This document shows, in pieces, positions 31,979 through 52,648 of a stretch of 64,000 nucleotides of DNA; position 1 is the first letter of the stretch; each line of letters opens with the position of its first letter. The DNA is from Halobacteriales archaeon YIM A00010. Lineage in GTDB: Archaea > Halobacteriota > Halobacteria > Halobacteriales > Haloarculaceae. The notes under the pieces were generated by a model, which was given only the letters and a program-made list of their open reading frames with translations, ran no database searches and was not told the DNA's origin. The position numbers and the translations under genes were made by a program. Location: NCBI GenBank assembly GCA_025041175.1, contig JAKCFJ010000003.1:558001-622000 (forward strand), in the 5' to 3' direction.

Positions 31979-33358
31979 TTACGTATCGACACTCCCGTCC
32001 CCACCTTCGTCCTCTGCGCTCTTTGATGCCTTCAGGACGATCGGATTGATCGGGGCCCCGCTCGCTCGTTCGACGTTAAGCGGCGCAGCCGTAAACAGAA
32101 AGTCGTAGATGCCATCCTCGGCGCAGGCCGCGCCGAGGTCCTCGAGCCAGAGAATTTCGTTGAGATAGACGCCGAGATTGCGGGTCAGTGCTCCGTGTAA
32201 CGGGATGAAAAACGTCTCACCGTCGATCTCCTGCGAGACTTTTTCGACTGCGAGATTGTCCGCGCCAATGTACGGGATGTCCATATCGTGGATCCACTCG
32301 ACTAACTCTTCGCTAAAACGTAGTCCCGGCTCGATCAGCGGACCCCATTCAGCGTTCGAGTCCCGGGTCCGCGCGATTGCCCCCGTCCGAATCAAGAGGA
32401 TATCGCGCTCCTCGATTTCGGTGTCCTGTGCATCAGCGGTTGTCATGAGGTCGTCGAACGTGACACATTCCTCGAGATCGAGGCGGCCGTTTTCCCCTCC
32501 GAACTGTCGACCCACGTCGAGAAGCACGCCTCGACCGCTGACGCCCTTGCTGGCCGGCTTCGAGACTGCGGCCTTCTCAAGACCTCTCGTCTCAGAGACT
32601 GACTCGAGTGGCTCCTCGTTACTGTCTGGAACTGCGTCGGTGCCGGTTGTGCCGAGCAGCGGCGTTTCGAATTCCTTTGTTGCCTCGGTAGTGCTAGCAG
32701 GAAACCCGTTATAGAGTTTCCCGCCGTACCACGGGTGGCCAAGTGCGTCGAGGTGGGTGGTCCCTTGCAGAAACACATCAGTAACGAACTTATCATCAAC
32801 GTATTTTATTCCACCAGTTACCTCCGTACCGCCGGTCGGTGTCGTATTATCCCGACGGGCAGGAGTCCGGGGTGGGAACGCCGGATCGCCGGTATCCGTG
32901 CTTGGAAACGTGGGGCTGGAGCCGTCCTCGGGTGGAAAGACGACATCCGGCTGAGTAGAGTCCGGATTGATGACGTCGCCGGTCACCGAGAGCTGGAGTG
33001 TGAACCGCTCTATTTGGTTCTTTCCACCCTTCATTGCCGCCTGCATTCCCGCGAACATCTGTTCGCTATCAATCAGGTTAAGCGCCCCCATCTCGTCGTC
33101 GTCGCCCCACCGACCCCAGTTCGTCGGTAGATCGTTGAGCAGTTCAGCGATGTCGCCAGACTGCGTCTGGCTGCTAGCCAGAACGCTTTGCATTCTGGTG
33201 GTGTCGCCAGCACTTCCCTGTGCCCTGACTGTTTCGATACTCGTCCCGGCAGCGGCGAATGCTAGCATCGCACCACAGCCCTGGACGAACAGCCGTCGGC
33301 CGAATCCTGCTTCCGATTCACGATCGTGTTTATGATTATTTGATATGTTATTGTTCAT
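31979..33358 (-). CDS. Tat-exported cyclase-family (kynurenine formamidase-like) protein
   Basis: A 459-residue protein of the cyclase/formamidase fold. The N-terminus has a twin-arginine-like signal (GRRLFVQGCGAMLAFAAAG, about 20-38). The metal motif is QGTTHLDALGHPWYGGKLYN (about 195-215): it keeps HxDxxxH but has Gln where many members have the first His, a variant also seen in larger relatives. About 40 extra residues (VVFPPEDGSSPTFPSTDTGD and beyond) interrupt the N-terminal half. Export is unusual for this family, so the substrate may be extracellular. The reaction is a hydrolysis by family, otherwise unknown. Confidence 0.8.
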   Translation of the reverse strand: MNNNISNNHKHDRESEAGFGRRLFVQGCGAMLAFAAAGTSIETVRAQGSAGDTTRMQSVLASSQTQSGDIAELLNDLPTNWGRWGDDDEMGALNLIDSEQMFAGMQAAMKGGKNQIERFTLQLSVTGDVINPDSTQPDVVFPPEDGSSPTFPSTDTGDPAFPPRTPARRDNTTPTGGTEVTGGIKYVDDKFVTDVFLQGTTHLDALGHPWYGGKLYNGFPASTTEATKEFETPLLGTTGTDAVPDSNEEPLESVSETRGLEKAAVSKPASKGVSGRGVLLDVGRQFGGENGRLDLEECVTFDDLMTTADAQDTEIEERDILLIRTGAIARTRDSNAEWGPLIEPGLRFSEELVEWIHDMDIPYIGADNLAVEKVSQEIDGETFFIPLHGALTRNLGVYLNEILWLEDLGAACAEDGIYDFLFTAAPLNVERASGAPINPIVLKASKSAEDEGGDGSVDT

Positions 33359-41303: not shown

Positions 41304-41343
41304 GTTTCATTAGTAGGAGTTAGGTTTCATTAGTAGGAGTTAG
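41304..41343 (+). repeat. 20-bp tandem direct repeat in the origin
   Basis: GTTTCATTAGTAGGAGTTAG occurs twice without a gap (41304-41323 and 41324-41343), between ORBs 5 and 6. Confidence 0.9.
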
Positions 41344-42289: not shown

Positions 42290-42614
42290 CTGTGCCGTGC
42301 GTATCGTCCGAATCGTCGATCGGAACGTCGCTCTCGAAACGGTCAATCTCTCGAAACGGTCAATCATGAAACCAAAAAAGACGCGAGGTGCCCTCTCTCA
42401 CTCATCATAATTTTGATATAGGAGGACTTGCTTTTCGAGGACTCATCACCGATGCGCTGGATCAAGTCTGCGTACCCGTGCTTGCACAGAGCGTCGTACT
42501 TGTCTCTACGAGCATTATTTTCTCTTCATCCGAGTTGTGGAACAAATTCTGTGGAGCCCTATAACTGAATATTCGTTCACAAGATGGAAGAGCTTTCACA
42601 TCTTCGGATACAGC
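42290..42614. other. Intergenic region before the ABC exporter
   Basis: About 325 bases. AATCTCTCGAAACGGTCAAT is nearly repeated near 42337-42367 (GAAACGGTCAATC twice). The frame of the ABC ATPase is open upstream, but without family features. No gene was recognised. Confidence 0.4.
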
Positions 42615-51180: not shown

Positions 51181-51676
51181 CAAGCGGCATCTCCCTGACG
51201 GGATGCCGCTGCTAAGTAGCGCCGTCGTTCTGGTGGCTGCTGGGGGCGTTGTCCTCATTACCGCTGTCTCCGCGTACACGCTTGTGGCCGGTGCTCTCGG
51301 CATTGTCTTGCTCGTCACCGGCGTCGCCCGCGGGTCATCGAGGATGTTCACTCTCGGGACAGCGATGCTTTTCGTTGGGATTGTCATCGCTGGGATGCTG
51401 GGGATGGCTCCGGTGTTCATCTTACTAGCCGCGTTTCTCGCGGCGATCGCGTGGGAGGTTGGACAGAACGGGTTCAGTATCGCAGAAGAAGTCGGACACG
51501 AGGCACCAACCCTCCGCATCGAGCTGGTTCACGTAGTCTGCAGTATTGTTGTGCTTGTGGCTGGAGTGAGCGTTGGATACGCGGTATTTCTCGCTGCCAC
51601 GGGGGGGCAACCAGTCCTCGCCCTCGTCGCGCTCCTCGTAGGAGCGGTCGTATTACTGGTTGCGTTGCAGGGGTGA
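51170..51676 (+). CDS. Membrane protein of the DUF58 operon
   Basis: A 168-residue protein starting at GTG 51170, overlapping the DUF58 gene by 11 bases. It has about five hydrophobic helices, in two blocks separated by an amphipathic stretch (WEVGQNGFSIAEEVGHEAPT). Similar small membrane proteins end haloarchaeal DUF58 operons. The function is unknown. Confidence 0.78.
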   Translation: MSRSKRHLPDGMPLLSSAVVLVAAGGVVLITAVSAYTLVAGALGIVLLVTGVARGSSRMFTLGTAMLFVGIVIAGMLGMAPVFILLAAFLAAIAWEVGQNGFSIAEEVGHEAPTLRIELVHVVCSIVVLVAGVSVGYAVFLAATGGQPVLALVALLVGAVVLLVALQG

Positions 51677-51718
51677 CGCTGGAGTTCTGTGAGACAGTGA
51701 CTTTTTCCCCACCCTACT

Positions 51719-52009
51719 CGCCGCTAACGGCGGCTCCTTGAGGGTGTCACCAGAACGCTTCGCGTTCTGGTTGACTCACAAGAGCTGTGCTCTCGTGAAT
51801 GTCGCCAGATTCCATCGGAATCTGGCTGCTAACCAGAATCTTCGATTCTGGTGATGTCGCCAGAAATCAGAGATTTCTGGCTGCTAACCGAGCTTCGCTC
51901 GGTGATGTTGCCGGGCTACGCCCGGCTGCTAGCCAAAACCTTCGGTTTTGGCGATGTCACCAGAAGCCGAGGCTTCTGGTTGCTAACCGGAACTCAGGGA
52001 GTTCCGGTG
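51719..52009. repeat. Hairpin array 2: eleven palindromes with alternating linkers
   Basis: Eleven inverted repeats follow each other, beginning near 51719, 51749, 51777, 51804, 51832, 51859, 51886, 51909, 51932, 51959 and 51985. Stems are 5-10 bp and loops mostly 2-4 bases, often TTC. Linkers alternate strictly over most of the array: TGATGTC after one hairpin, TGCTAA after the next. Stem sequences differ widely, for example CCAGATTCC, GCCGGGC and GCCAAAACC. The last two units match units 3-4 of array 1 in stem, order and linker, but differ in the loop. Confidence 0.9.
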
Positions 52010-52282
52010 ATGATGGATCGACGACGGACACCGCCTTTCTTGTCGGACTCGAGGATGACGACATGAGTATCACACGCCAACAGTGATCTGCTACGACGCC
52101 CACACCAACCAGAGGATTCACGTTCATCTCGGACGAGTGAATGACTTGATCGTCAACGTGGGAATTAAATCTCAATGGAATGTAATATTTCGTGGACGTA
52201 ACAGTGGGAGGCTTGTAAAAGACTGCGAGAGTGTGAGAGGGTAGCAATTAACGAATCAAGATAGATGTTCTGGAATGAGCTT
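52010..52282. other. Intergenic region between hairpin array 2 and the toxin gene
   Basis: About 270 bases. The final part of an open frame here ends LVGLEDDDMSITRQQ and could be a remnant of something larger, but nothing is recognisable. Confidence 0.35.
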
Positions 52283-52648
52283 CTACCAAATAGAAAGGTG
52301 ACTAGAAATTGCAGCTTCTAATTCGTCCATCTTAACGGGACTGATTTCGCCCATCTTCCACTCCTCTTCATTCATGATTCGGTCTTGTATAGAAACGCTC
52401 GCGATGAGATTGACCTTTGCTACGCTCTGTCGTTCGACTCCGTCATTATCCGGGAAGAGTTGAATTTCGTGGCCTTTCCCACGATACTCGTTTGTTGTGA
52501 TGGGAACGACTGTTACTGTAGCTAGCTCGTGATTTGCGCTGTTATTTTGAACGATGACGGCTGGATGTGGACTATCGAACTCGCAATCAGGTATTTCGTC
52601 TTCTTCTGGGAAATCGATTCGGACAATATCTCCCCTAGCCACGGTCAT
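52283..52648 (-). CDS. MazF/PemK-type toxin
   Basis: A 121-residue endoribonuclease-like protein. The N-terminus ARGDIVRIDFPEEDEI, HPAVIVQNNSAN (about 28-39), ATVTVVPITTNEYRGKGHEI (about 43-62) and VAKVNLIASVSIQDRI (about 76) fit the MazF barrel. It should cut mRNA when free. Its ATG lies 14 bases before the stop of the preceding gene in another frame, so it depends on translation of that gene; GTG 52642 is a possible second start. Confidence 0.88.
   Translation of the reverse strand: MTVARGDIVRIDFPEEDEIPDCEFDSPHPAVIVQNNSANHELATVTVVPITTNEYRGKGHEIQLFPDNDGVERQSVAKVNLIASVSIQDRIMNEEEWKMGEISPVKMDELEAAISSHLSIW

Follow-up and report, generated by a model that had tools for sequence, protein, structure and literature searches.

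The hairpin array at positions 51710–52012 of the window (the whole stretch analysed, 64,000 nt of Halobacteriales archaeon YIM A00010 DNA) most probably consists of five stacked copies of a small, gene-less mobile DNA element inserted at TG, a reading from sequence comparison to which we assign a probability of roughly 0.8. Direct reading together with scripts located ten strong hairpins between 51749 and 52008. All but one are perfect, with stems of 7–10 bp and loops of 2–3 nt; the exception (51776–51798) carries a single mismatch. In 500 dinucleotide shuffles, perfect hairpins of 7 bp or more averaged 0.05 and never exceeded 2, against the nine present in these 300 bases; folded as RNA, the array has z = -11.2. 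The initial annotation had described eleven palindromes in a head-to-tail repeat. Ten of these are the strong hairpins, but the first (51720–51734) has only a 5-bp stem and no family linker and is of other origin, being the core of a longer palindrome at 51710–51746; likewise the array is real, but its repeating unit is two hairpins rather than one. The near-constant, alternating linkers reported there were confirmed by direct reading and scripts, and the order of spacers along the array is TGAC / ATGTC / TGCTA / GATGTC / TGCTA / GATGTT / TGCTA / GATGTC / TGCTA. Its location between DUF58 genes and a toxin-like gene also held: plus-strand DUF58/DUF7519 genes lie to the left, with the DUF7519 gene ending at 51676, and a minus-strand PemK/MazF-like gene (52283–52648) lies to the right. 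The flanking genes are convergent, and 72 bases separate the end of the plus-strand gene from the first strong hairpin. The features are listed below, where R1 is a covariance model of the two-hairpin unit.

51710–51746, no strand: palindrome resembling the near-terminal palindrome of IS605/IS1341-type tnpB right ends, CACCCTACTC..GGCTCCTTGAGGGTG (shared motif and fold)
51745–51746, plus strand: first TG core, the insertion point of the stack (read directly; rule from empty sites)
51747–51799, plus strand: element 1, second subtype; TC, hairpin 51749–51771, spacer TGAC, hairpin 51776–51798 (one mismatch), A (model match 51743–51789)
51800–51801: TG core after element 1
51802–51854, plus strand: element 2; TC, hairpin 51804–51826, TGCTA, hairpin 51832–51852, GA (R1 match 51798–51858, 72.9 bits)
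51855–51856: TG core after element 2
51857–51905, plus strand: element 3; TC, hairpin 51859–51881, TGCTA, hairpin 51887–51903, GA (match G000:C3:609853-609909, 64.5 bits; perfect hairpins)
51906–51907: TG core after element 3
51908–51954, plus strand: element 4; TT, hairpin 51910–51926, TGCTA, hairpin 51932–51952, GA (match 51904–51952; G000:C3:609904-609958, 51.2 bits)
51955–51956: TG core after element 4
51957–52010, plus strand: element 5; TC, hairpin 51959–51980, TGCTA, hairpin 51986–52008, GA (R1 match 51953–52014, 73.1 bits)
52011–52012: last TG core, after element 5
741–892 (about), plus strand: second family array, at least six hairpins, spacers TGCTA/TGCTT, junctions AATGTC/TCTGTT (model match 769–830, 72.9 bits)
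33149–33205, plus strand: lone two-hairpin element of 51 nt without a stop, inside a minus-strand open frame (model match, 57.8 bits; translation)

The lone element sits after the predicted signal-peptide stretch of its host frame, and the protein fragment hosting it matches no Pfam family. Two further repeats in the window (41304–41343 and 42331–42365) have no relation to the array; they are short perfect tandem repeats whose units measure 20 bp and 17 bp.

The layout of the element is TC-hairpin A-TGCTA-hairpin B-GA, about 47–55 bp, with TG on either side. Linkers fall into two classes, spacers (TGCTA, TGCTT, TGCC) and junctions (GATGTC, CTGTC, AATGTC), which alternate 73 times and repeat 12 times. 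Their roles are apparent from single copies in genes and transposons, where the inserted piece is exactly this layout flanked by TG, and the alternation is thus explained by TGCTA being internal to each copy and GA-TG-TC being the junction between copies. Since this junction contains TG, the insertion site is restored and stacks can form. Relative to TG, all flanked copies are in one orientation (84 forward, 0 reversed). The feet of the element are inverted (TCRCC..GGYGA), and the junction is dyad-symmetric, GGTGA-TG-TCACC. Other stacks, of 3–9 hairpins, were read at the loci found by blastn; their linkers are the same and alternate likewise, and their stems draw on a common vocabulary. The proposal of a mobile repeat grown by unit duplication was therefore right about mobility but not about growth, which proceeds by adding different units: neighbouring units differ, a tandem-repeat search lists none at the array, and separate parts of the array match separate units elsewhere in the genome. 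Similarly, stems do differ in sequence as initially described, but not freely, as they draw on a recurring vocabulary and close the loop with a C-G pair. The inverse-of-CRISPR layout, with constant linkers and variable palindromes, was accurate anatomy and is accounted for by element spacer and junction; a constant part alternates with a variable part as in CRISPR, but there are no repeats of CRISPR length and no acquired spacers. CGTC-type feet (CCAGAACGC..TGGCTG..CACGAGAGC..AACGTC) mark a second subtype, which occurs in L011, L040, L071 and L072, and also as element 1 of the window array.

Comparison of filled with empty sites showed that the insert extends from one TG to the next. A GH3 gene in the same genome contains a 216-nt in-frame stack (72 codons) that is absent from the congeners L190/L191 at 77–81% nucleotide identity, where the empty site reads CTCGACGGCGACAG^CGAGGG. 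Empty tnpB right ends were found in Halorussus and Halobaculum (GGAGGG^TGGGGCTT and GCGGG^TGGGGCTT), and four other tnpB right-end loci are filled at exactly that base. The WCRPC gene family of Halocatena includes both intact paralogs and interrupted ones; an AMP-binding enzyme carries an in-frame element with its frame open, and a GNAT gene is interrupted by an element. An empty counterpart of the window stack itself was not found, the DUF58 homologs of congeners being only 34–42% identical, and no movement of the element was seen within a species.

With the array as query, blastn gave 17 matches in its own genome and matches in 29 of the 59 genomes searched. R1 gave 146 matches in its own genome, a tally that counts both strands because the unit is palindromic, and at E ≤ 1e-4 it matched 245 of 292 Halobacteria genomes and 74 of 76 genera. 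A lack of conservation in relatives, which the initial annotation had named as grounds for refuting it, was not observed. Outside Halobacteriales, R1 matched 5 of about 204 genomes of the phylum; one genus among these (G340, G349 and G356) has 10, 1 and 9 matches, respectively, which could reflect transfer or contamination. Copy counts are not counts of independent insertions, since some copies were duplicated along with host sequence. A viral origin was considered and dropped: a phage collection gave no match, and two viral contigs picked up by pattern showed no array when read. Class-wide presence, regular spacing and the dyad-symmetric junction would also suit a DNA scaffold that binds protein and is maintained by the host, such as the nucleoid or supercoiling site proposed for bacterial REP/BIME. 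We regard this as highly improbable, given that related genomes differ widely in how many copies they have and where these lie, and that no array lies downstream of the DUF58 homologs in six congeners.

Pairing within the stems is maintained with changes on both arms. In an alignment of 16 units, paired cells make up 97.5%; of the 20 pairs, 13 changed on both sides and none on one side only. Selection on RNA is expected to produce an excess of G-U on its strand. Among 98 distinct units, 1857 cells are Watson-Crick, 16 G-U, 14 A-C and 6 other, and this near-equality of G-U and A-C gives no sign of RNA selection. No Rfam family matched the array at gathering (curated) score; the hits in evalue mode to MIR8622, mir-3140, sR14 and TLS-PK1 were far below the cut-offs and were rejected as identities. 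The RNA scaffold suggested in the initial annotation is therefore not supported, G-U being not favoured over A-C, the loops fitting a DNA mini-hairpin motif, and units lying inside reading frames too. The same data bear on a transcription terminator or 3′-end mRNA structure selected by the host. The position between convergent genes, 72 bases past the end of the plus-strand gene, and a folding z of -11 speak for it, but the lack of a G-U excess on either strand, the absence of an Rfam family at curated score, the occurrence of units inside open reading frames and tnpB genes, and the observed insertion events make it very unlikely. We assign no selected function to the stack, which may incidentally stop transcription between the convergent genes. 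More generally, hairpins that covary in haloarchaeal DNA call for a comparison of G-U with A-C before they are taken for structured RNA.

Covariation alone is no proof of selection, because template switching between the arms yields it as well. Switching would perfect the palindromes without any function, in a manner compatible with mobility, and agrees with the lack of one-sided variation, the equal rarity of G-U and A-C, and the many different loops carried by copies with an identical stem. We consider wholly unselected stems a tentative possibility, of some weight but short of even odds, as the loops are not random. Among 237 distinct hairpins, the loops are TNC in 95 and GNA in 73 (71% together), as against 25 of 79 (32%) in isolated control hairpins, and the 5′ loop-closing base is C in 232. 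C(GNA)G is an exceptionally stable DNA mini-hairpin (PMC4686876). The stability claim for GNA rests on the literature, since loop energies calculated with DNA parameters did not distinguish between loop sequences. The loop bias suggests that a stable DNA hairpin is selected for as well.

Copies at tnpB 3′ ends prompted a search of 242 genomes for the element abutting TTGAGGGTG, which revealed 34 such places in 23 genomes and 12 genera, while the reversed-pattern control gave 0. The full palindrome CCCCACCCTAC..TTGAGGG was present in 17 of the 21 loci read. These results establish the IS605/tnpB right-end palindrome as a recurrent target used at one exact position. The window stack adjoins the left half of such a palindrome (51710–51746), whose motif also adjoins family elements in L124, L129 and L203–L223 and occurs in the empty tnpB right ends L233/L234. 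Because of this adjacency, the first "hairpin" of the array is probably what is left of an IS605-type right end, an attribution short of proof since the sequence following the stack on the right, past the TG, is TGATGGATCG and not the canonical TGGGGCTT. The right end of tnpB encodes the guide-RNA scaffold, so insertions there could affect TnpB function. One tnpB (OrfB_IS605; L093:1501-2534) has four copies of the element and is still an open frame of 379 codons.

The association with tnpB right ends raises the possibility that the element is itself a PATE reduced to its termini, that is, fused IS605-type ends moved by an IS200/IS605 (HUH, Y1) transposase. PATEs have no terminal inverted repeats and carry palindromes near both ends, related to IS605 ends (PMC3119063), and the present element resembles them in having palindromes near both ends with almost nothing between and no genes, as well as a fixed strand orientation; a terminal-only example of 52 bp, the minimal form, is known in Haloquadratum (PMC3119063). 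However, our elements are guests inserted into IS605 right ends at a fixed base, for which empty versions exist, and they have inverted TC..GA feet, which PATEs lack. Moreover, two congeners that carry elements (G001 and G002) have no match to the Y1 transposase PF01797, and none of the 17 Y1 loci examined is bracketed by family hairpins. We therefore consider this derivation unlikely.

As to how the mobile element moves, a trans-acting enzyme would recognise the TC/GA feet and the folded hairpin, probably single-stranded or extruded, irrespective of the stem sequence, and would act at an asymmetric TG. Each insertion recreates TG, so that the next copy can stack. Perfect stems could be kept because hairpin recognition demands them, because template switching between the arms restores them, or for both reasons. 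The either-orientation trait of MITE/DDE elements is absent, for TG lies on both sides yet 84 of 84 copies are in one orientation. A simple DDE transposase making a 2-bp duplication is disfavoured by this fixed orientation, which suits either a site-specific recombinase whose core is TG or a single-strand transposase with strand specificity. A Y1 transposase partner was rejected, no hairpin-flanked gene cassette having been found, as was an autonomous version with a gene between two hairpins, as the loci examined contain no solo facing hairpins enclosing a gene; no mobilising enzyme or autonomous element was found. An element apparently recognised by shape and not by sequence, present in most sampled Halobacteria, raises the question of which enzyme moves it.

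Among known systems, the SMR-A family of Haloquadratum walsbyi (HqIRS42, HqIRS43, HqIRS55) is about 110 bp long with >95% identity within a family and prominent terminal inverted repeats, its mobilisation is reported as enigmatic, and it reportedly prefers to insert within near-terminal palindromes of IS605-type transposons and PATEs (PMC3119063). The present family is likewise short, transposase-free, of high copy number and inverted at its ends, with equally enigmatic mobilisation, and the preference for IS605 near-terminal palindromes matches its hotspot of 34 places in 12 genera. By comparison with SMR-A as described, it differs in a unit of about 47–55 bp (two make about 110), in stems that differ between copies, and in the stacking of copies; R1 found no match on the Haloquadratum plasmid PL47. 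In one genus of Haloferacaceae, probably Halorubrum (L106–L128, for example L112:1481-1587), the unit is embedded in a cassette of about 105 bp comprising four hairpins, with GTCGTT..AACCACG as its boundaries; the stems of the cassette stay fixed, its loops change, and its size is near that of SMR-A.

CGTC-tagged REPs have no dedicated transposase, their CGTC is often changed to TGTC, and some lie inside genes (PMC3733652); in that paper the word archaea occurs twice, in the reference list only. The present family shares with REP/BIME the short hairpins and their pairs and clusters, and may share a conserved short tag beside the hairpin, in our case TGTC. REP hairpins have GTAG or CGTC at the foot; the TGTC and AACGTC feet seen here resemble CGTC, as do the CGTC-type feet of the second subtype. 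In contrast to REPs, whose stems are conserved within a family, its linkers are constant and its stems vary, and it forms a fixed two-hairpin, head-to-tail unit with TG-bounded insertion in archaea. The RAYT-REP arrangement, a Y1 gene flanked by hairpins, was not seen in the 17 loci. As it lacks at least one tested defining feature of each, we place the family with transposase-free small mobile repeats but not within SMR-A, PATE or RAYT-REP. The class-wide family is apparently undescribed, as we found no account of it in the open-access literature.

Units are commonly 51 or 57 nt long, both divisible by three, and a number of the frames containing copies are open; hence in-frame extra peptides from elements occur, and some extra peptides in haloarchaeal proteins are element insertions. 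Rickettsia palindromic elements (RPE), of about 150 bp with conserved peptides, are inserted in frame in protein genes and translated (PMC10969869). The likeness concerns behaviour only, as seen in the AMP-binding enzyme and the GH3 enzyme with its 72-codon stack, and the present copies differ in being 51–57-nt units or in-frame stacks that are also common between genes. Some in-gene copies carry stops. Three aldo/keto reductases from three genera, 42–51% identical, contain a 51-nt element between the catalytic Asp and Thr-Ala. These elements (L046:5226-5275, L049:4499-4548 and L059:2626-2672) have an in-frame TAG in frames that are otherwise intact, and share an unusual variant with a TT foot and an RGCTA spacer. 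The insertion is not a common feature of such genes, the pattern being found in only 2 of 391 genomes, and independent targeted insertions are the simplest reading. We give scarcely any credence to the idea that the cell might eliminate or skip in-gene copies, whether in the RNA or during translation, in the way of a mini-intron or a bypassing element. For the WCRPC gene, an intron or bypass is weakened by the many intact paralogs, since copies that are interrupted may no longer be functional. A multicopy gene family specific to Halocatena (..GLWCRPCQSTGCAHATQIEQILATAGLG..; L099–L102, L035, L036 and L134–L159) has no Pfam match, and several of its copies are interrupted by the element at the same codon.
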